Part shown: positions 31,880-45,849 of the stretch, piece after piece
How positions within the stretch are numbered: position 1 is the stretch's first letter
Layout: every line of letters starts with the position of its first letter
From: Sulfurovum sp.
GTDB taxonomy: Bacteria; Campylobacterota; Campylobacteria; Campylobacterales; Sulfurovaceae
DNA length: 64,000 nt
Assembly: GCA_021166685.1 (NCBI GenBank)
Contig: JAJPEU010000003.1
Span: 1-64,000, forward strand
Direction: 5' to 3'
Position numbers and translations under genes: made by a program
Notes under the pieces: generated by a model
The model's database searches: none
What the model was told of the DNA's origin: nothing
The model's input: only the letters and a program-made list of their open reading frames with translations

Positions 31880-33314
<1,435 letters not shown>

Positions 33315-33410
33315 TCTAGAGCGCAACCGACATGGCACCTCTATACAAAGACATGATCAACTAAAAAGAAGCCTAGGCCTTCTTTAAGAAGAAACAATAA
33401 AGGAAAAATT

Positions 33411-34382
33411 ATGGGAATGGACAGTTTAATCGGCGGAACCATCTGGTCCGAATACAGTCAAAAAGTAACGGATTCAATGAACAACCCAGTACATAAGGGC
33501 GAGATAACCCAAGAGCAGGCAGATGCGATGGGGGCAAAACTTATCGTAGCTGATTTCGGCGCTGAGAGCTGCGGGGATGCAGTAAGACTTTATTGGGCGG
33601 TTGATCCCGAAACCGACATCATCCTTGATGCTAAATTTAAAAGTTTTGGATGCGGTACGGCAATTGCCAGTTCCAACACAATGGTGGAACTGTGCATAGG
33701 CAAAACTGTTGATGAAGCAGTTAAGATCACAAATATTGATGTAGAAAATGCGATGAGAGATACTCCGGATGTTCCTGCGGTGCCGCCTCAAAAAATGCAC
33801 TGCTCAGTCATGGCTTATGATGTGATCAAAAAAGCGGCCGCACTGTACAAAGGTGTGGATATGGCAAGTTTTGAAAATGAAATTATCGTTTGTGAATGCG
33901 CACGCGTCAGCCTGTCTACCCTTAGAGAAGTCATTCGCCTCAACGATCTTACGACGGTAGAGCAGATCACAGACTACACCAAAGCAGGAGCATTTTGCAA
34001 ATCATGTATCAGGCCTGGCGGGCACGAAGCAAAAGATATCTACCTTGTTGACTTGCTCGAAGAGTATGAAAAAGAAAAAATGGCCAAAGCAGCGGATGCT
34101 TCTGCAAGCGGTATAGCTATTGATTTTGCCCAAATGACGGTTGTTCAAAAATTAAAGGCTGTAGATAAAGTAATTGATACCAATATTCGTCAAATGCTCA
34201 TCATGGACGGTGGGGATATGGAGATTTTGGATATTAAAGAAAATGGCGCACATTTTGATATTTATATCAGATATCTTGGCGCCTGCAGCGGCTGCGCAAG
34301 TTCATCAACGGGCACACTTTATGCAATCGAAAACATTCTAAGACAGAAACTCGACGAAAATATACGGGTCCTTCCTATTTAA
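33411..34382 (+). CDS. nifU: Fe-S scaffold protein NifU, three-domain form
   Basis: A 323-residue scaffold. The N-terminal IscU-like domain has its three Cys in GAESCGDAVR, KSFGCGTAIASSN and KMHCSVMA. A central BFD-like [2Fe-2S] domain carries CECARVS and FCKSCIRPGG. The C-terminal Nfu domain carries GACSGCASS (about residues 290-298). This is the full-length NifU typical of Campylobacterota. It receives sulfur from NifS and hands clusters to apoproteins. Many Fe-S proteins lie in the next operon. Confidence 0.95.
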   Translation: MGMDSLIGGTIWSEYSQKVTDSMNNPVHKGEITQEQADAMGAKLIVADFGAESCGDAVRLYWAVDPETDIILDAKFKSFGCGTAIASSNTMVELCIGKTVDEAVKITNIDVENAMRDTPDVPAVPPQKMHCSVMAYDVIKKAAALYKGVDMASFENEIIVCECARVSLSTLREVIRLNDLTTVEQITDYTKAGAFCKSCIRPGGHEAKDIYLVDLLEEYEKEKMAKAADASASGIAIDFAQMTVVQKLKAVDKVIDTNIRQMLIMDGGDMEILDIKENGAHFDIYIRYLGACSGCASSSTGTLYAIENILRQKLDENIRVLPI

Positions 34383-34792: not shown

Positions 34793-35611
34793 CTAAAACT
34801 CACGCTCAACTTCTGACATGCTCGTAAAAGCATCGCATGCTAAAACAGCTGCGCCAAAAGAGGTCGTAATTTGCGGATATTCCGGTACAAATACCTTTTT
34901 GCCGAGTTCGTTTTCGATGGCATGAACCAGTCCGGCATTCAAAGCCGGTCCGCCGTCAAAATAGACATTTTCTTTGATGCCGACTCTTTTAACCAGTTTC
35001 ACGATTCTTTTGGCAATAGAATAGTGAACCCCGGAAACAATATCCTCAACACTATGGTTGCTCCCCAGCAGTCCGATGATCTCCGATTCGGCAAAAACAG
35101 CACAGGTGCTGCTGATCGAGAGCGGAGTTCCGGTTGATTTAAAATGATAGTCACTAAGCTCATCGACGCCTATCTCCAAATTCATCGCCACCACATCTAA
35201 AAATTTTCCGGTTCCTGCCGCACATCGGTCATTCATGGCAAAGTTGACCACATTGCCTTCGCTGTCTAGTGAAATTGCTTTACTGTCCTGCCCGCCTATG
35301 TTGATAATGGTTTTTATCTCTCCGTATTCTCTTGCCGCCTCTTGCGCTCCGATCGCATTGGCGGTAATTTCACTGATGTTTTCATCTGCCTCTTTAAACA
35401 GTTTTCTGCCATATCCCGTTGCAACAGTATAGGCGATTTCATCCTGGCCGATATGCAATTCATCCAGCAAACTTTGTAAAGTTTCTTTGGCATATTTATA
35501 AAACATGCTCCCGCTTGCGTTGATTTTAAATCCGACCAAACGTTTATGCTCATCCGTAACAGTAATTTTGATCGCTGTCGAACCGATATCTATCCCTACA
35601 AAATACTTCAC
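34793..35611 (-). CDS. ATP-dependent activase of HgdC/BcrAD family (2-hydroxyacyl-CoA dehydratase/double-cubane activator)
   Basis: A 272-residue ASKHA-fold ATPase. It shows phosphate-binding loops GIDIGSTAIK (residues 6-15) and NIGGQDSKAI (about 104-113), and the two Cys that hold a [4Fe-4S] cluster at the dimer interface: Cys130 in NDRCAAGTGKFLD and Cys170 in SSTCAVFAESE. Family members use ATP to push an electron at very low potential into a partner reductase. Its start overlaps the stop of the reductase gene by four bases (ATGA), so the two are translationally coupled. Length is standard. Confidence 0.88.
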   Translation of the reverse strand: MKYFVGIDIGSTAIKITVTDEHKRLVGFKINASGSMFYKYAKETLQSLLDELHIGQDEIAYTVATGYGRKLFKEADENISEITANAIGAQEAAREYGEIKTIINIGGQDSKAISLDSEGNVVNFAMNDRCAAGTGKFLDVVAMNLEIGVDELSDYHFKSTGTPLSISSTCAVFAESEIIGLLGSNHSVEDIVSGVHYSIAKRIVKLVKRVGIKENVYFDGGPALNAGLVHAIENELGKKVFVPEYPQITTSFGAAVLACDAFTSMSEVEREF

Positions 35612-36885
35612 TTTTTCATTCTCCGTCTATTTTTCAGCGATTCCACAAATGCTTCCACCCTTGTCGTAAGCTGTCCCTGCTGGGAAGGACTGTAGTCACT
35701 TTCAACATACAAAATCGCAATACCCTCTTTTTCCATCGCCGCAAGAACACTTCTTTGTTCCATTTCATATACTTGACATCCCGCAAATGCCTGATAAACA
35801 ACTCCATCTGCGCCATAACTCCTCACAAGGTCGACTATCCTTCTGATTCTGTCGTCATTTTTTGTAAAAATAGGACAGGTGCACCCTTTTAGATATTTGT
35901 CTGCTATTGAATCAATCATATCATTTAAAAACCACTCATCAACACTGACCCTGTCATTAAACATCCTGTTTGAACTGCACGTTTCATCTGCAACAATGAT
36001 GGCATCTGACTGTTCCACGATAAGAGGGATTTTATAGTTTGGAAAAATAGGGGGTGAGCCCGTATAAACGATCCTCGGACTTATTTTACCGCCGGCATGA
36101 ATTTGATTTGCAGCCCTTTGCTCTACTTCTTCTATAAGTTCTTCAACGGCTGCGATCCAATTGTCTATCTTGTCAAAGAAAAAAGCATTGGTGATTAAAA
36201 ACATATCTTTGCCCAAAATAGGAACAAGCCTGTTTTTTCTAAAATCATTCAGTTTATGATACAGCGTTTGGGCGTATCCGATTTTTTGGATAGAGGCTTT
36301 AAGATTTTTCTTTGTCAGTTTTTTGTTAAGATTTTTGGACATATCGCTGCTAAATTTTCGTACACTTCTTCTCCAGTATTCCCTACTTTCTTCACTCTCT
36401 TTTGTTCTTGGAAAATCTACATCGATGACCTCATAACCAAAATTTTGCACTATGGCCCCTGCTTTGGTTTTTTGGTCACAGGTCGTTGGAGAAAAAATGA
36501 TATCGGGTTTATCACTGAAATTTTCTGAAGCCAGATGGCCTACCGTTGCCTTTACGAGCGGACAGGATTTTGAAGGCATCAAATCGCTTCCTATCTCATC
36601 ATCCGTATAAAACCCGTTACAAAGCCTTAGGGGAACAGCATCAAGTGCATAAATGATTTCAGAAGGTATCTGAATGCACATGGTACCGATTTTTACTTTA
36701 TTCGTATGCAGCGCTTCTTGTTTGCAATACACTTTTTCAAATAAATCATAAAAATAATTCATCGCTTTTGGCGGCTCTTTAAACTCTTTCTTGATAGCGT
36801 TAAGTACTTTTACCGCCTCCATGGCTTTATGTCTATTTTGTTTTTGCCTAGGTGTTTCCAGTGCAGGCTTTATATTATTGGTCAT
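35608..36885 (-). CDS. HgdB-family reductase, probable double-cubane-cluster protein (DCCP) type
   Basis: A 425-residue member of the 2-hydroxyacyl-CoA dehydratase (HgdB/COG1775) family. Cysteines at 54, 70, 89, 108, 136, 303, 335, 337 and 370 are candidates for Fe-S ligands (e.g. GTMCIQIPSE, SPTTCDQKTK, ADETCSSNRM, GCTCPIF). It is encoded as a single subunit with its own activase. True dehydratases and benzoyl-CoA reductases have a paired second subunit, and no CoA-transferase is nearby. This favours the DCCP class, whose [8Fe-9S] cluster reduces small molecules in an ATP-dependent way. GGAG precedes the ATG, which overlaps the NapH-like gene by 11 bases. Physiological substrate: unknown. 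Confidence 0.8.
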   Translation of the reverse strand: MTNNIKPALETPRQKQNRHKAMEAVKVLNAIKKEFKEPPKAMNYFYDLFEKVYCKQEALHTNKVKIGTMCIQIPSEIIYALDAVPLRLCNGFYTDDEIGSDLMPSKSCPLVKATVGHLASENFSDKPDIIFSPTTCDQKTKAGAIVQNFGYEVIDVDFPRTKESEESREYWRRSVRKFSSDMSKNLNKKLTKKNLKASIQKIGYAQTLYHKLNDFRKNRLVPILGKDMFLITNAFFFDKIDNWIAAVEELIEEVEQRAANQIHAGGKISPRIVYTGSPPIFPNYKIPLIVEQSDAIIVADETCSSNRMFNDRVSVDEWFLNDMIDSIADKYLKGCTCPIFTKNDDRIRRIVDLVRSYGADGVVYQAFAGCQVYEMEQRSVLAAMEKEGIAILYVESDYSPSQQGQLTTRVEAFVESLKNRRRMKK

Positions 36886-37864
36886 TATTTTTCTCCAAAT
36901 GGCTCATACCCATTCTTTTTGCAAATCCTTCTTTTGTGGAACTAAAGACTCTCATGTTCAAAATATCCACATGCAAAGCATCATCTTCAGGACATGCTGC
37001 GACACACTTCATGCAGAACATACAGTCATCCCTTAAGATATTTGTGCTTGTTACGTCATCGGCGATGTCTTTGATTTGCATATCGCACACTTTATAGCAA
37101 TCACCGCATTTGGTACATTTATCTCCGTCTTTTCTAAGCTTCAAAAGCGACAGATCGGACATCGTATAATGCAGTGCGCTCATAGGACAAAAAAAACAAA
37201 AGAATCTTTTTTTAATAAAACTTCCGACAAAAAATACTGCGGCAAACAAAACTCCGATCGTCGTTAAAATCATCGCTGCAACTGAAGAAAAATCGATTTT
37301 CCACTGAGAAAAATCACCTACAAACATAGGAGATATGATGCGTGCAGGGCATATTTGACAAAAAGCTCCGGACCATTCCCCCCCCAAAACCCCAATGCCC
37401 ATAAGCAAAGGAATCATAATAACGATTGCCAAAAAAATATATTTGATTTTTGACAATTTATCAAACTGGGGTTGAGAATAGGTACTGTATCTGATCCCCA
37501 GTTTTTTTCTCAATGCAGTTATCCAGTCCTGCAAGGTACCAAATGGGCATGCATATCCGCACCAAGCTTTATTTAAAACAACAAACCATGCGATAAAAGT
37601 CAACAGCCCGATAAATACAGAAATAGCCGCGGCTCCAAAAAGCACATTTGCCGGCATTGCAAGCTGATGCTGCAAAGGCATGAAATAACAGGTTGCCCCC
37701 GTTTCTCTATTGTACGGACAGGCAAATATCGGGATGCTTGAACCAAAATCTATAAAAACATATCCCCCGTATGCAAAAAGTATAAACATAACCAGCTGAA
37801 TCCAAAACCTAACCTTGTTTAAGGGCATATTGTTGATTATGTTTTTTATTTTATTTTTCATCAT
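36875..37864 (-). CDS. NapH-like membrane ferredoxin
   Basis: A 329-residue protein with about five membrane helices and three membrane-associated CxxC(x)CP motifs: WCGYACPFG (Cys102/106), CQICPARI (169/172) and CFFCPMSA (223/226). Two ferredoxin-type [4Fe-4S] sites follow: CTKCGDCYKVC (250-260) and CMFCMKCVAAC (281-291). This is the NapH/NosR/CcoG type of quinol-linked electron carrier. Start ATG 37864 overlaps the upstream gene by 14 bases; the longer frame to 37918 lies wholly inside that gene. I infer that it passes electrons on to the cytoplasmic activase, as no free ferredoxin gene is present. Confidence 0.8.
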   Translation of the reverse strand: MMKNKIKNIINNMPLNKVRFWIQLVMFILFAYGGYVFIDFGSSIPIFACPYNRETGATCYFMPLQHQLAMPANVLFGAAAISVFIGLLTFIAWFVVLNKAWCGYACPFGTLQDWITALRKKLGIRYSTYSQPQFDKLSKIKYIFLAIVIMIPLLMGIGVLGGEWSGAFCQICPARIISPMFVGDFSQWKIDFSSVAAMILTTIGVLFAAVFFVGSFIKKRFFCFFCPMSALHYTMSDLSLLKLRKDGDKCTKCGDCYKVCDMQIKDIADDVTSTNILRDDCMFCMKCVAACPEDDALHVDILNMRVFSSTKEGFAKRMGMSHLEKNNDQ

Positions 37865-40235
37865 ATCTAACTTCTGCAAATGGTTTTGTTCTGTTTCTTC
37901 TGAATCTGTATGCAACAAAAGATGCCAACAATAGCGTTAAGACAGCAATAATCAATCCGTCTTGATAAGATTTATATTCACTCTCATTTGGATAAAAAGA
38001 GAGGGGGTATGTAAGTGTATATTTTATTTTGTTATAGTCGACCCCGTCTAAAACACCTTCGGCATCATCTGTATACGACAAGGATATCAGCATCATTTCC
38101 TTGTGTCTTTTGTCAAATTCAGACCATTTTGGAAAATAGTCTTTTATGATATTAAATTCTACGATCCCTTCTTTATCTGTCTTGAATTCCCTTGTCCAGC
38201 CCGTATTTATAAATACTTTTATACCGGCATTGGCCAAAGGCTTGTTGTTCAAAAGGGCTTTGAATCTCAAAAGATCCCCGCTCGAATGAGTATAAAAAAA
38301 GCTGTCCTCTTTTTTGTTTCTCAATCTAATCAAATCTATTCTGTTTTTTTCCGCGATAAACGGTTGGCTTTTGTGTGCCTCGTAGACATCAGTAAGCCCA
38401 TGGCTTCCATTCAAAAATTCCAACTTTGCACTTTTGTAATGCAATGTATTTTCTTCTATTTTTGAACTATTGAAGAATAAATTATAGTATCCGTTGTGCG
38501 GCATCTCAAAACTATAGGCAGCGCAATTGTATTGAAGGGCGGATTTGACAGGTTTTTCTTTGTTAAGTGTATCATACAGCAATAACTCTCCGTCCAGCTT
38601 TCCGACACACTCGTTTTGTCCAAAATTCTCGCCATAAACCAACCATACTTTTTGCGTGGGTGCCGCCATTGGATTGCCGCCATACATCCTGGTTCGAGAA
38701 TCTTTTGATGTTGCTTTTGGATCACTATTGGTAAAATAAATCAAATCGCCGGCTTTAATGCTATTTTTAAAATCCAAAATCTCTCCGCCATTATCCCGGG
38801 GCTGCGAGGAAGAAGTTGCATAGGAGGGCCTTTGCGCTATGCTTTGCCCTCCCATATGATGGGAATGATCTGCTGCTTTGACGCCATACACTTTAAATAC
38901 ATACCCTCGATAGATATTGATTCCTATAAAAAATATCACCAGCAATGAAGCAAAAATATAGCCAAGTATTTTTCTCATTCTTGTACTATCGATCAGCTTT
39001 AATCTTTTATACAAAAGTATCTGTGTCCAAATGACACCGATCCATCGCAGAAATCCAAAATAGTGAAGCCAGGCGTCGCCTCTTTTGGCCAGCGGCATAG
39101 CTTCGGCGGCAAATCCGAAAGCCTGGGCAAACCCTTTCACGAGCGTTGCATAATCTTTGACAAAAAACATCTCCAGGGTATGGCCCAAAGAGCCCAATAT
39201 AAAAAGCGGCGCAAAGGCATATCCCAAGGTTGAAAAAGTAGTATTAAAATCTTTTTTAAGGGCTATGGAAGCAAGCCACAAGCCGAGTACCGCAAAAAAT
39301 ACGCTCAACACTATCGCATACACAAAAGCAAATCCGACACCGTATTCGCTCATGCCAAAAAATGCCGCCGTTTTGTTCCAGATCATCTCCTGTGCGATAG
39401 TGCTTCGTTCCAATCCATGCGCAAACGTCATCGCCACCGGTATCGCTGCCAAGATCAGAATAAAAGCCCAAACCTCAGCATTAAGGGCTTTGAATTTTTG
39501 CCCCAGTATGTGCGCGGGTTTTGTAAATTTAAATTTTACCGCTTCGCATGCGTTTGCACACTCCATGCACAAAGTACAATCATCGGTATGATTTTTCGCA
39601 GCAAATGAAAAAGGCTTCAAATGGTACGGGCATGACGAGGCGCACTCAAACGTTTTGCACTCCCTGCAGCTGTCCGTATAGGTTTCAAGTTTTGTAAAAG
39701 ACAACTTATCATACGCTCTGCACATCGTTCCGATAGGACAAATATATTTACAATAGCTCATATCTTTGTAACTATAATAAACAATAAACGCAACTGCGGT
39801 CATGCCGGCAAACAAACCGGCTGTCCCAAGCGGGCTTGTTAAAAAACCAGGGAACACATAATAGGCCCCCCACCATCCGACAATCAATAAAAAAATCCCT
39901 ATATACCTGTTTTGCATCCATTTTGGCATTGTTTTTTTTAAACCCAAAGCAGTAATGTACTTGCCCAAAAATCCATGCGGGCAGATTCCGCAAAATATTC
40001 TTCCGAATGTAGGAAGCGTCAGCAGCATAAAAAGCGGCCAAAACAAAATCCAAAAAACTGCGCCGGTAAAAATATTCTCTTTGGCAGGGTTCATAAACCC
40101 ATAAAAGACGGCATAAAAAAACAAGAGCGCAACAGCGATTCTAATTCCCAATAAAAATTTCTTATTTTTAAACACAAACCCCAAAATGGGCCTGTTGAAA
40201 ATATCATTTTTGTCTCTTTTTACAAAATCAACCAT
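37851..40235 (-). CDS. Polyferredoxin membrane protein with periplasmic DUF4198/NikK-like tail
   Basis: A 794-residue protein. Residues 1-240 are NosR/NapH-like, with CGICPHG (82/85), CKYICPIGTMC (162-172), CRECKTFECASSC (190-202) and CTLCMECANAC (220-230). About six further helices follow up to about 445. A His-rich DHSHHMGG (about 456-463) opens a periplasmic beta-rich region (470-755) whose end (LRFKALLNNKPLANAGIKV, then DKEGIVEFNI) resembles DUF4198, a fold linked to nickel/cobalt uptake. A last helix (about 757-775) and a basic end close it. The fusion is unusual. It is preceded by the CcdA-like gene with a 9-base gap. Confidence 0.7.
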   Translation of the reverse strand: MVDFVKRDKNDIFNRPILGFVFKNKKFLLGIRIAVALLFFYAVFYGFMNPAKENIFTGAVFWILFWPLFMLLTLPTFGRIFCGICPHGFLGKYITALGLKKTMPKWMQNRYIGIFLLIVGWWGAYYVFPGFLTSPLGTAGLFAGMTAVAFIVYYSYKDMSYCKYICPIGTMCRAYDKLSFTKLETYTDSCRECKTFECASSCPYHLKPFSFAAKNHTDDCTLCMECANACEAVKFKFTKPAHILGQKFKALNAEVWAFILILAAIPVAMTFAHGLERSTIAQEMIWNKTAAFFGMSEYGVGFAFVYAIVLSVFFAVLGLWLASIALKKDFNTTFSTLGYAFAPLFILGSLGHTLEMFFVKDYATLVKGFAQAFGFAAEAMPLAKRGDAWLHYFGFLRWIGVIWTQILLYKRLKLIDSTRMRKILGYIFASLLVIFFIGINIYRGYVFKVYGVKAADHSHHMGGQSIAQRPSYATSSSQPRDNGGEILDFKNSIKAGDLIYFTNSDPKATSKDSRTRMYGGNPMAAPTQKVWLVYGENFGQNECVGKLDGELLLYDTLNKEKPVKSALQYNCAAYSFEMPHNGYYNLFFNSSKIEENTLHYKSAKLEFLNGSHGLTDVYEAHKSQPFIAEKNRIDLIRLRNKKEDSFFYTHSSGDLLRFKALLNNKPLANAGIKVFINTGWTREFKTDKEGIVEFNIIKDYFPKWSEFDKRHKEMMLISLSYTDDAEGVLDGVDYNKIKYTLTYPLSFYPNESEYKSYQDGLIIAVLTLLLASFVAYRFRRNRTKPFAEVRYDEK

Positions 40236-40244
40236 TTTTTGCCT

Positions 40245-40907
40245 TTAAAGTGCGATTTGACTGTTTAATATTAAAACTCCGACTGCCAGCAAAAGCAGTG
40301 AAGCCGCAACTTCGATCGCTTTTGCATAAGATCTAAACTCCATCAGCAATCCCCTCATAACACCGGATAGAAAAAATCCGTAAAATAAAAACGGAATTAG
40401 TGCCGCTCCAATCCCGAACGATACCCCCATGCCTATGGCATTTATCAGTGTTTTACTGTTCGCAGCCAATGCGATAAGGGTTAAAATAGGTGCGCACGGA
40501 TTGAGCGCGACCATTGCGCCGATCCCAAATAATCCAAATTTTCCTATACCGGTTTTGTTGGGGATCGGTGAATTTGAAGCACAGCTTTTTTTATTTTTAC
40601 CAAAAACTCTATAGAGCATAAAAAACCCCATCATCATGGTAAATATCCCTAAAATAAATTGAAAGATAGCATTGTCATCCAGTATCGCCTTGATCAGGCC
40701 GGCACTGCTTAGGGCAATGATAGAGATCATTGTATATGAAAAAATTCTTCCCAAACTAAACGGCAAAACTATACCTATGGATTGTTTTATAGTGCCAGAA
40801 TGGTTTACTAAAAGCGGACTCAAAAAAGGCATGCAGGTAAACATACATGCGGTACTGCCATACGATACCCCTATCATAAACAGTGAAAAATATGAAAATG
40901 TCTCCAC
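40245..40907 (-). CDS. CcdA/DsbD-like (TauE/SafE-type) thiol carrier
   Basis: A 220-residue membrane protein with six to seven helices. Cys21 and Cys25 (TACMFTCMPF) in the first helix and Cys138 in LNPCAPIL of a later helix match the redox-helix layout of the CcdA/DsbD-type transporters (often annotated sulfite exporter TauE/SafE). Such proteins carry electrons across the membrane for cytochrome or metal-centre biogenesis. It starts with GTG. It is the first gene of the five-gene reductase operon; an ATG at residue 11 is an alternative start. Confidence 0.75.
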   Translation of the reverse strand: METFSYFSLFMIGVSYGSTACMFTCMPFLSPLLVNHSGTIKQSIGIVLPFSLGRIFSYTMISIIALSSAGLIKAILDDNAIFQFILGIFTMMMGFFMLYRVFGKNKKSCASNSPIPNKTGIGKFGLFGIGAMVALNPCAPILTLIALAANSKTLINAIGMGVSFGIGAALIPFLFYGFFLSGVMRGLLMEFRSYAKAIEVAASLLLLAVGVLILNSQIAL

Positions 40908-41226
40908 CTTTATCTCTTGTCGTTTATCTCTATATTTAAATTCAATACACTATCCTCTATTCGGACCTGCCGTGATTTTTGCACTTTTAACATCTAAAAT
41001 TTGTAAAGCCTGATTGTTTTACATTTATCGTTGCTCCAGATTAGACATGTATTGTTTCCAAAAAATGTTAATTATCTGTTAAGCGAAGGAAGGTTTTTAA
41101 AATATAAAAAATTATAGAATTTAATTATCACAATAATAATGCTATCATTATTATTCAAAATCTAACCGAAATGGGAAATTTGCCAAAAAATGCTTTTTAG
41201 AAAGTGGATTTGGCAGAAAGAGTCGA
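40908..41226. promoter_or_regulatory. Divergent control region with 10-bp-arm palindrome
   Basis: This is a 319-base gap. AATAATAATG (41132-41141) and CATTATTATT (41146-41155) are perfect inverted arms around CTAT. On the minus strand a TATAAT (41111-41116) would be the -10 of the reductase operon, with its -35 (about 41134-41139) inside the palindrome. The palindrome is therefore placed like a repressor site. It resembles Fur boxes but the spacing is one base off. For the plus-strand gene it is about 70 bases upstream of the ATG. The rest shows no gene. Confidence 0.55.
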
Positions 41227-44016: not shown

Positions 44017-44096
44017 AATCAGACGCCGTAAAGCATTTTCTTTGTAAAAAACTTTTTGCTATGAAGTTTTTTATGCTGCTTTTACGATGGCTTGGC

Positions 44097-44122
44097 TATA
44101 ATTTTTTATCCAAACACAAAGG
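44097..44122 (+). promoter_or_regulatory. Promoter of the radical SAM-methyltransferase gene
   Basis: TATAAT at 44097-44102 gives a start near 44109, which favours the ATG at 44134 over a TTG at 44092 that lies upstream of the promoter. AAAGG (44118-44122) is a rather distant ribosome site, 11 bases from the ATG. Confidence 0.5.
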
Positions 44123-44133
44123 CTTACCGTCCA

Positions 44134-45849
44134 ATGCTTTATGAAAGCCTGCCGTACTATTCATACCGTGATTATTTGACGCAAAGATACGGCGAATCCC
44201 TTTTTCGTGTACCCATTGACTTGGAGCTCGGCTGCCCCAACAGACGGCCGGATGGTTCAGGGGGGTGTACATTTTGCCCCGAAAACGGCGCAAGGGCCAT
44301 CCAGACACTTGATGCCAAAGGCACCGAAGCACAACTTGAAGCGGGGATTGCCTTTGCAAAAAAACGCTACAATGCACACCGCTTTATGCTTTATATTCAA
44401 GCCTATACCGGTACATTCGCATCTGTTATCGAACAGAAAAAAAGATATTCCGAACTCTTGCAGGCTTATCCTTTTGATGCCATCAGTATCGGCACCAGGC
44501 CTGATTGTCTCTTTGGTACAACACTAAATTATCTTAAAGAGTTAAATGAAACACTCGATGTCTATGTCGAACTGGGTGTGCAAACGATCCACAACAAAAC
44601 CCTAGAGCATATCAACCGACAACACGACTGGCAGTCAAGCCTCGATGCCATTGCTGCACTTAAAGCCCACAATATCAAAGTCTGCGCACATATCATTGTG
44701 GGACTTCCGGGCGAAGATCGCGAACATTACCTCCAAACGATCCAAACACTTGCTCCGCTCGGTCTCGACGGCATCAAAATTCACAATTTGCATATCATTA
44801 AAAATACCCAGCTTGCCAAAGAGTATCTTGCCCGGCCGTTCGCGGTGATGAATGAGCATGAATATGCCGAAATTCTCATCGAGCTTATCCGCTATCTGCC
44901 ACCAAACCTGCCATTGATGCGTTTTGCAACCGATACTCCCGAAAAAGAGATTATTGCCCCAAAATGGCAGATGAGCAAAGGGCAGTTTTCAGATTATGTT
45001 ACAGAGCAGATGAATCTTCGCGGTTATCGCCAGGGAGACCTTTTTGAAGCAGGCAATGAAGAGCCCCAATTGCCTATGCCAAACGTTTTTGAATGTAAGG
45101 ACGGAAGCTATACCATTTGGAACGAAATGTTCCGGGATTACTATCATCCAAGATCCGGAGCCAGAGCGCAGGGTAGCGAACTTTTTGTTGCAGGAGCCTC
45201 GCTGAGGGAACGTCTAAAAAAAGGGCCTGTGCGATTGCTCGATATCGGTTTTGGTATGGGATATAATAGCTTGCTTGCCTGCGAGGCAGCCCGGAGTACA
45301 GCGCTTCATGCACTTGAAATCCACGCGGTCGATCAAGACCGCAATGCAATTCTTCAAAGTGCAAATACCGTAAAAAATATTCCTGGCGAAAAACTCGCGT
45401 GGCCTCAGATTTTAAAAACACTCCATAAAAACAGCATATACGCTTCAGAATACTTCAATATAACCCTTCACAACAGTGATGTCAGGTATGCCCTTGCTCA
45501 ACAAAAAGGAACGTTTGATGTAATCTTTCTTGATCCATTTATTGAACGGTCCAACTGCAGAATGGTGACACTTGAACTTTTTGAACATTTAAAAAAAATT
45601 CTTAAAGACGACGGGGTTCTTATTTACTCAGGTATCAATACAGCAAGCCTTTCAGCTATGGCTGATGCAGGCTTTTGTCTCATGGCTGCCGGTAGGCCAA
45701 AAAGCGACATACGCGGCATTGTCGCCAAGCATACGGGTCCTTCTTTAAAATATCACACTATTGTGCCTTACCGCGATCCACATGGTGTCTGGACTGACCG
45801 CAAGATCCGCCAGTACCGGGAACAAGAGATCAAAAAACAAAAATGCTGA
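44134..45849 (+). CDS. Fusion of YtqA/MnmL-like radical SAM enzyme with MnmC1-like tRNA methyltransferase
   Basis: A 571-residue two-domain protein. Residues 1-300 are the TIGR01212/YhcC-YtqA radical SAM type, with cluster Cys at 34, 45 and 48 (CPNRRPDGSGGCTFC), YIQAYTGT and GLPGEDREHYL. Residues about 320-520 are a DUF752-type methyltransferase with LLDIGFGMGYNSLLA (368-382) and DVIFLDPFIERSN. B. subtilis YtqA (MnmL) acts with the methyltransferase YtqB in mnm5U formation on tRNA. Aquifex DUF752 is an MnmC1-type enzyme doing the same methylation. The fusion therefore probably performs late steps of wobble-uridine modification. mrp follows after 63 bases. Confidence 0.8.
   Translation: MLYESLPYYSYRDYLTQRYGESLFRVPIDLELGCPNRRPDGSGGCTFCPENGARAIQTLDAKGTEAQLEAGIAFAKKRYNAHRFMLYIQAYTGTFASVIEQKKRYSELLQAYPFDAISIGTRPDCLFGTTLNYLKELNETLDVYVELGVQTIHNKTLEHINRQHDWQSSLDAIAALKAHNIKVCAHIIVGLPGEDREHYLQTIQTLAPLGLDGIKIHNLHIIKNTQLAKEYLARPFAVMNEHEYAEILIELIRYLPPNLPLMRFATDTPEKEIIAPKWQMSKGQFSDYVTEQMNLRGYRQGDLFEAGNEEPQLPMPNVFECKDGSYTIWNEMFRDYYHPRSGARAQGSELFVAGASLRERLKKGPVRLLDIGFGMGYNSLLACEAARSTALHALEIHAVDQDRNAILQSANTVKNIPGEKLAWPQILKTLHKNSIYASEYFNITLHNSDVRYALAQQKGTFDVIFLDPFIERSNCRMVTLELFEHLKKILKDDGVLIYSGINTASLSAMADAGFCLMAAGRPKSDIRGIVAKHTGPSLKYHTIVPYRDPHGVWTDRKIRQYREQEIKKQKC

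Follow-up and report, generated by a model that had tools for sequence, protein, structure and literature searches.

What does a reductase of the double-cubane cluster protein (DCCP) type do when its gene lies in an operon with membrane iron–sulfur carriers, and in which direction do the electrons run between them? The question is raised by a 64 000 nucleotide stretch of Sulfurovum sp. (assembly GCA_021166685.1, contig JAJPEU010000003.1, positions 1 to 64 000), referred to here as the window. Between positions 34793 and 40907, five tightly packed ORFs lie on the minus strand, each overlapping the next or within 9 bases of it. The five-gene operon is real and its recurrence is beyond chance; 63 loci, drawn from one scan of named species genomes, were available for comparison. 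The reading favoured here, to which we give about an even chance, is an outward, ATP-powered electron line across the inner membrane that reduces a metal chelate in the periplasm. The features of the operon are as follows.

40245–40907, minus strand: CcdA-like (DsbD_2) membrane thiol carrier, 220 aa (DsbD_2, 60.3 bits)
37851–40235, minus strand: NosR-like membrane polyferredoxin with C-terminal periplasmic domain, 794 aa (Fer4_5, 40.6 bits; alignment; AlphaFold2 model)
39471–40235, minus strand: N-terminal polyferredoxin part of the NosR-like protein, residues 1–255 (Fer4_5 match, invariant cysteines)
37989–38756, minus strand: putative periplasmic beta domain of the NosR-like protein, residues 494–749 (predicted fold)
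36875–37918, minus strand: NapH-like membrane iron–sulfur protein, 347 aa if read from TTG, about 329 aa if from the likelier ATG (Fer4_5, two ferredoxin-type clusters)
37349–37720, minus strand: stretch of the NapH-like protein with extra C67, C77, C187 and C190, and H84 (conservation in relatives)
35608–36885, minus strand: DCCP-type reductase of the HGD-D family, dcc, 425 aa (profile, structure, alignment and tree matches)
34793–35611, minus strand: ATP-dependent activase (BcrAD_BadFG), act, 272 aa (BcrAD_BadFG, 179 bits; TIGR00241, 234 bits)

Transcription runs from the ccdA-like gene through the nosR-like gene, the napH-like gene and dcc to act. The gap between the first two ORFs is 9 bases, the nosR-like ORF overlaps the napH-like ORF, the napH-like ORF shares 11 bases with dcc, and dcc shares 4 with act. 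The TTG start of the napH-like ORF at 37918 is probably too early; the true start is probably one of the ATG codons at 37864 and 37861, which give a product of about 329 or 328 aa and an overlap of 11–14 bases with the nosR-like ORF. An earlier note on this DNA had described five minus-strand genes that overlap or abut, with which the ORF coordinates agree; in the window, the comparison with the note covered the operon and its near flanks. It also placed an ATGA overlap at the end of the operon; the 4-base overlap stands, and the motif is to be corrected to GTGA, the start codon of act being GTG.

The DCCP-type protein and its activase

The dcc product matches the Pfam family HGD-D with 306 bits. 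Its best NCBIfam model is double_cubane (NF040772) at 329.1 bits, compared with 78 for HadC and 63 for BzdN, and its best matches among solved structures are the DCCP entries 7yyl and 6eno. The NF040772 score falls below the equivalog cut-off of 350 bits. In a maximum-likelihood tree of 21 rows, 13 of them operon proteins, these 13 form a clade of their own (support 100/100), and a fork supported at 98/96 unites the operon clade with 6eno and distant DCCPs of Campylobacterota, leaving HadC, BzdN and MbdN outside; the tree program warns of long branches meeting at this fork. Because the proteins form their own clade and score under the cut-off, the operon HGD-D protein is placed, by sequence comparison, as a sister subfamily beside canonical DCCP and not within that equivalog, nor as a dehydratase subunit. 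The association of the HgdB homologue with DCCP rather than with dehydratases, for which the earlier note had proposed a phylogeny as a check, is thus what the tree returned.

The operon holds one HGD-D gene, and a protein query of the 1.8 Mb window genome (E ≤ 0.001) returned this gene as its sole match. The two HGD-D subunits of a 2-hydroxyacyl-CoA dehydratase or benzoyl-CoA reductase are not found in the operon, and the protein is single-subunit, as the earlier note held. Nine cysteines had also been noticed, at positions 54, 70, 89, 108, 136, 303, 335, 337 and 370. Across 61 dcc ORFs from the loci, with 2–4 gapped rows per column, every aligned residue in these nine columns is cysteine except for one leucine at C54. 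Six of them (C70, C108, C136, C303, C337 and C370) align with cysteines of 6eno/7yyl and of BzdN, one being offset by one residue in the BzdN alignment, and HadC is without two of the six in the alignment. Both 6eno and BzdN are described as double-cubane proteins in a passage of PMC11971306, and the six cysteines common to them are the predicted ligands of a double cubane in the operon protein. DCCP-type activity is described in the same source as ATP-dependent reduction of small molecules such as acetylene, azide and hydrazine (PMC11971306).

The activase exceeds the TIGR00241 cut-off of 125 bits. Its two cluster cysteines, Cys 130 and Cys 170, which had been recognized from the single sequence, are invariant in 55/55 ORFs, and a third cysteine is not conserved among these 55. 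Long open frames in two relatives (L066 and L112) gave the appearance of a DCCP–activase fusion. This was rejected, since dcc and act lie in different frames, and the long frames are therefore taken to be shadow frames in GC-rich DNA.

Linkage and distribution of the gene set

A napH-like gene stands beside dcc in 60 of the 63 loci, and in the three loci without one (L056, L062 and L065) the contig begins inside dcc. Among 397 Campylobacterota genomes of at least 90 % completeness (napH-like gene at E ≤ 1e-60, dcc clade at no less than 60 % identity), the dcc clade is present in 28 and the napH-like gene in the same 28 (Fisher p ~1e-43, not corrected for kinship). Two more genomes carry a distant DCCP only (31–32 % identity) and no such napH-like gene. 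The host genus contributes few carriers: three of its 36 other genomes have the set, in one case as a contig-terminal fragment. In the Gammaproteobacteria, the class of locus L060, the dcc clade occurs in 5/370 genomes, that of L060 included; all five have the NosR-like/NapH-like pair, and in four a TonB-dependent receptor lies within the examined stretch. No dcc was found in viral contigs. Linkage within the set is strict, its distribution patchy. Co-occurrence had been suggested as a check on the operon, and the shared 28 genomes together with recurrence in 63 loci indicate that the set is not broken in relatives.

One locus (L017:3-10208) looks like a cassette exchange. Its flanking nosR/napH copies and activase are 91–97 % identical to those of the window, the dcc gene between the flanks is only 75 % identical, and extra receptor, NosR-like and NapH-like genes come with this dcc.

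Distant, canonical-type DCCP/activase pairs at L113:1674-7740 and L114:780-7931 have TusA/SirA-like ORFs as neighbours, to which L113 adds a SelD-like ORF (all named by eye). These neighbours hint that the role of the distant DCCP branch has to do with selenium or sulfur; a passage of PMC10418091 draws one DCCP in a selenium context. A further distant pair, at L115:5986-12110, faces opposite-strand ORFs which by eye resemble a periplasmic binding protein and a TonB receptor. No NapH-like or NosR-like partners were found for the distant Campylobacterota pairs L113–L116 in the 13.5–14 kb examined.

The membrane proteins

The NapH-like protein contains CxxxCP pairs and, by Pfam, a Fer4_5 match and two ferredoxin-type clusters. 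It scores far under the NapH family cut-offs (77–78 against 213–234 bits), and there are no nap genes in the operon. C67, C77, H84, C187 and C190 are invariant in 59/59 NapH-like ORFs (those of 300–420 aa, out of 62 in the cluster). These residues sit in two loops with 0.51 and 0.53 K+R per 10 residues, compared with 1.49–3.19 in the other parts of the protein, and a predicted cytoplasmic-side loop with C120/C124 lies between the two predicted periplasmic loops. From hydropathy and charge only, the four extra cysteines are predicted to be on the periplasmic side, and the protein looks two-sided across the inner membrane. An ordinary NapH-like protein of the window genome (L088) shares the CxxxCP and ferredoxin cysteines and lacks the four extra ones. 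On the opposite strand beside the DCCP operon of another relative, L015:198-4872 encodes a receptor, a DUF4198-type protein, a NapH-like protein and a CcdA-like protein, with no DCCP of its own; the NapH-like protein of this second module is 35 % identical and has the same four extra cysteines.

In the NosR-like protein, the cysteines at 82, 85, 162, 166 and 190–230 are invariant in an alignment of 23/23 full-length relatives. The N-terminal polyferredoxin part is absent from short relatives of about 308–377 aa. At E ≤ 0.001, the 794 aa protein has no NosR model match in NCBIfam and no match to a flavin mononucleotide-binding domain in Pfam. H273 and H352, also invariant in the 23 relatives, lie in or near membrane helices, and it might be speculated that they are haem ligands. 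Residues 494–749 have the predicted fold of Zcp and DUF4198 metal-binding proteins, at 11–16 % identity, and are preceded by a His-rich linker. This domain is internal to a membrane protein, so that there is no free N-terminal histidine after a signal peptide.

The CcdA-like protein keeps the motifs C25-x-P and C138-x-P, and C21, C25, C109, C138, P27 and P140 are invariant in 45/45 locus ORFs of 180–240 aa. That two membrane polyferredoxins belong with the reductase, as the earlier note proposed, is upheld by the Fer4_5 matches in both and by the linkage of the gene set.

Receptors and periplasmic partners in relatives

ORF clustering over the 63 loci places a TonB-dependent receptor family in 50, mostly upstream of the set; of seven receptors compared with Pfam, six gave full matches and one matched by the plug domain only or nearly so. 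Gene content was counted in a full-context set, the 37 loci in which dcc has 6.5 kb or more of sequence upstream and 4 kb or more downstream. Left out were 24 shorter loci and two (L048 and L066) in which dcc was missed by the ORF picker. In this set the receptor is present in 36/37 loci, the NosR-like gene in 37, the NapH-like gene in 36, the CcdA-like gene in 35 and the activase gene in 34; tblastn recovered NapH in L057, the activase in L067 and a 31 % CcdA-like match in L022. ExbB is found in 14/37 loci, ExbD in 14, TonB in 17 and an RND pump in 13. The receptor, ExbBD/TonB, RND pump, NosL and DUF4198 elements are visible only in relatives, hence their absence from the earlier note.

The operon receptors fall into several families at 40 % identity, and different ligands are therefore likely. 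Most have a siderophore or haem model as their best match, always under cut-off. In a copper-specialized form of the same outward route, Cu(I) would be made from an imported copper chelate and handed on to sites of the NosL or DUF4198 kind; a role of this sort in oxidase assembly is attributed to CcoG-type polyferredoxins. The copper-specialized form does not sit easily with the receptor scores, and an ATP-driven donor should not be required to reduce copper. NosL matches in 12/60 NosR-like proteins speak for it, the lack of any in the other 48 against it. The receptor flanking the operon in L046, which has a 52 % relative in the host genome, scores best to a TonB-copper model (179 bits, under the cut-off of 472). 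The nitrous oxide reductase gene nosZ is somewhat commoner in operon genomes (15/28, compared with 113/369 others; p 0.02, not corrected for kinship), but 13/28 have no nosZ match at the threshold used, for which reason a dedicated copper supply to N2O reductase was rejected. We regard the copper-specialized route as unlikely.

It is also conceivable, if quite improbable in our estimate, that the line, whether outward or inward, has as its substrate some imported organic or organometallic molecule (for example a corrinoid, redox cofactor or other ligand) and does not free a simple metal ion. Operon receptors remotely resemble PqqU/YncD, and the small receptor of 592 aa, as remotely, BtuB, but every such similarity is under the curated cut-offs. 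ATP-driven activation serves corrinoid reduction too, according to a passage of PMC6739815. The RND partner in L012 scores 415 bits to multidrug-type and 244 to metal-efflux models, all under cut-off. Against this reading, the periplasmic fold is of metal type, as are the NosL and DUF4198 signals.

The host genome (G000) has a receptor in the region L091:785-5846 (contig C13), with a best match to the TonB-copper model (191 bits, cut-off 472). It adjoins response-regulator, sensor-kinase-like and TonB-like ORFs, and is the 52 % relative of the receptor flanking the L046 DCCP operon.

Direction of electron flow

The outward line would begin with the activase, which would take an electron from cellular ferredoxin or flavodoxin and, with ATP, deliver it to the DCCP at very low potential. 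The clusters that the NapH-like protein has on its cytoplasmic side would receive it from the DCCP, as would those of the NosR-like N-terminus where present; from there electrons would move across the membrane, to the periplasmic cysteines of the NapH-like protein and/or by way of the CcdA-like thiol carrier. The target would be a chelated metal, most probably in a ferric complex of siderophore type, imported by the TonB-dependent receptor and held by the periplasmic metal-binding domain. Reduction would free the metal, and the RND pump could return the emptied ligand in some relatives. In this scheme we infer the electron direction, the contact between DCCP and the NapH-like protein, the metal-chelate substrate and which metal is released. 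Catecholate and hydroxamate complexes have low potentials, and an ATP-driven DCCP donor would make sense if such chelates are too hard for ordinary donors.

Outward flow is favoured because the receptor, the metal-type domain and the extra cysteines are all on the periplasmic side, as predicted, and because no inner-membrane importer was identified among the partner families present in more than six loci (neighbours found in one locus were partly scanned). It is favoured also by gene arrangement. In L024, L037 and L058, one DCCP/activase is preceded by two modules, each with a receptor, a periplasmic protein and a NapH-like protein; related doublings occur in L017 and L042. Two genomes, G440 (L022 and L027) and G441 (L032 and L062), each have two DCCP operons and one activase gene; both are drafts, in which an activase could have been lost through incompleteness. 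Together, the doubled modules and the single activase have the look of a shared source with exchangeable outlets. We suggest more tentatively, at somewhat less than an even chance, that the system is a transmembrane electron pump of a new class, in which a DCCP charged through ATP hydrolysis at the activase has no cytoplasmic substrate to reduce and sends very-low-potential electrons by way of the two-sided NapH-type protein into the periplasm. It would free metals, intact, from ligands closed to NAD(P)H- or quinol-driven reductases, with interchangeable modules of receptor, metal domain and NapH served by one shared pump.

The earlier note had supposed the reverse, a dedicated membrane chain that replaces ferredoxin or flavodoxin in feeding the activase and perhaps draws on the quinone pool. 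In such a scheme the quinone pool or the periplasm would supply the activase and DCCP, and a small cytoplasmic substrate would be reduced. Transfer of quinol electrons to a site of very low potential is strongly uphill without an extra drive. The strict linkage of the NapH-like and DCCP genes would be accounted for, and a passage of PMC8238504 assigns NapH proteins to the quinol side of nitrate reductase. The scheme would nevertheless leave unexplained the receptor, the periplasmic domain of metal type, the extra periplasmic-side cysteines and the doubled receptor/NapH modules before one DCCP. Nor is there an inner-membrane importer among the recurring partner families identified. Because it is uphill and the comparative evidence points outward, the quinone-to-DCCP direction is not supported, and we hold it to be highly doubtful.

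Several observations weigh against the outward line to a metal chelate. No receptor lies beside the operon in the window or in its near relative L008, the sole full-context locus without one. No Fe(II) transporter was identified among the recurring partner families. There is no excess of Fur boxes upstream of 62 operon receptors (mean best match 11.92, compared with 11.89 in shuffled sequence), in a scan of up to 350 bases with one consensus that could miss boxes of another. The AlphaFold2 model of the NosR-like protein is of modest quality overall (mean pLDDT 68), and the protein's DUF4198 Pfam score of 20.7 bits is under the cut-off of 34. Lastly, the metals of the nearest fold relatives (zinc, nickel and cobalt; copper also) would mostly not be freed by reduction.

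As regards the missing receptor, the window genome has nine receptor-type matches on other contigs, seven of them over cut-off. One, at G000:C8:200957-203158, matches an operon receptor of L058 with 66 % identity across 99 % of its own length, and is kept at 92–96 % in the genus's two other near-complete genomes with the operon, G034 and G035. In operon-free genomes among 60 relatives its best match is 51–55 %, in three. This unlinked receptor may serve the window operon from a distance.

Regulation and neighbouring genes

Iron control by Fur was considered and rejected, the matches to the one consensus being no better than shuffles. An exact FNR box, TTGATNNNNATCAA, lies between the divergent receptor and NosR-like genes in L060 (6607) and L067 (6615), and occurs twice in the same region of L066 (6591 and 6963), where the picked ORF ends overlap. 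It is absent over the full stretches of L109, a close relative of L060, and of L110, L111, L112, L053 and L065. At 9/10 matches, none was found in the short regions of L109, L110 and L111, nor upstream of the window operon, and a looser FNR pattern at 39 automatically chosen operon starts matched only L060 and L067. This is suggestive of anaerobic FNR control in the species of L060, L067 and L066 only.

Upstream of the ccdA-like gene, a short A+T-rich palindrome, AATAATGATAGCATTATT (minus strand), was seen by eye at 41120–41160 of the window; it is not present in the aligned upstream stretch of L008. NifS- and NifU-type iron–sulfur assembly genes (32124–34382) adjoin the operon on the other strand, and by cluster membership such neighbours are found also at L008, L017 and L059. 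Elsewhere in the window, a single ORF of 585 aa (44092–45849) combines a radical SAM domain pair with a methyltransferase domain (Methyltransf_30).

Relation to known systems

The DCCP and DCCP reductase of Carboxydothermus hydrogenoformans, the source of 6eno and 7yyl (PMC7306483), are likewise a single HGD-D protein and an activase encoded by an adjoining gene. The operon protein has the six cysteines in common with this DCCP and stands on the same side of the tree, but the operon proteins form their separate clade, and in every locus with complete context dcc is accompanied by membrane proteins of the NapH-like and NosR-like kinds. BzdNO and the 2-hydroxyacyl-CoA dehydratases have the HGD-D fold family and an ATP activase in common with the operon, and BzdN also holds a double cubane (PMC11971306); those enzymes have two subunits, whereas the operon has one. 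With the NapH-like proteins of Nap, Nos and organohalide systems, the operon protein has in common the CxxxCP pairs and two ferredoxin-type clusters, and differs in its four extra cysteines, predicted on the periplasmic side, and its DCCP partner. Zcp and the Ni-binding DUF4198 proteins differ from the operon version in that the latter is a domain of a polyferredoxin membrane protein.

The closest likeness in layout is to PepSY-like ferric reductase clusters of the FpvG, FoxB and VciB type, described as having a TonB receptor, an inner-membrane carrier and a DUF4198-type protein (PMC8238504, PMC11870441). For PepSY-like clusters with DUF4198 proteins and TonB receptors, passages of PMC8238504, PMC11870441 and PMC10866019 propose periplasmic reduction of siderophore iron. 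In the operon, by contrast, the carrier is NapH/NosR-like and CcdA-like and the presumed donor an ATP-driven DCCP; the linked receptor, present in 36/37 full-context relatives, is missing from the window lineage. No PepSY or flavinylated protein is found among the five operon genes of the window, and one PepSY_TM protein occurs at the relative L013. The operon may work like a PepSY-like ferric reductase system, and it is not classed as one here.

A 2025 paper states the biological function of DCCPs as unknown (PMC11971306). In the open-licence literature searched, neither 'double-cubane' together with 'TonB', nor the combination of TonB-dependent, 2-hydroxyacyl-CoA dehydratase and polyferredoxin, was found. 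The parts are known; what appears to be new is their combination, above all an ATP-driven DCCP as the presumed donor.

The strict genomic link to membrane iron–sulfur carriers, with the TonB receptors and the metal-binding-type periplasmic domain of the relatives, makes DCCP function concretely testable in sulfur-oxidizing bacteria. If electrons run outward, ATP-driven low-potential transfer would power periplasmic as well as cytoplasmic chemistry, and these bacteria would have an added anaerobic route for taking metals from tight chelates. DCCPs would then gain a testable role.

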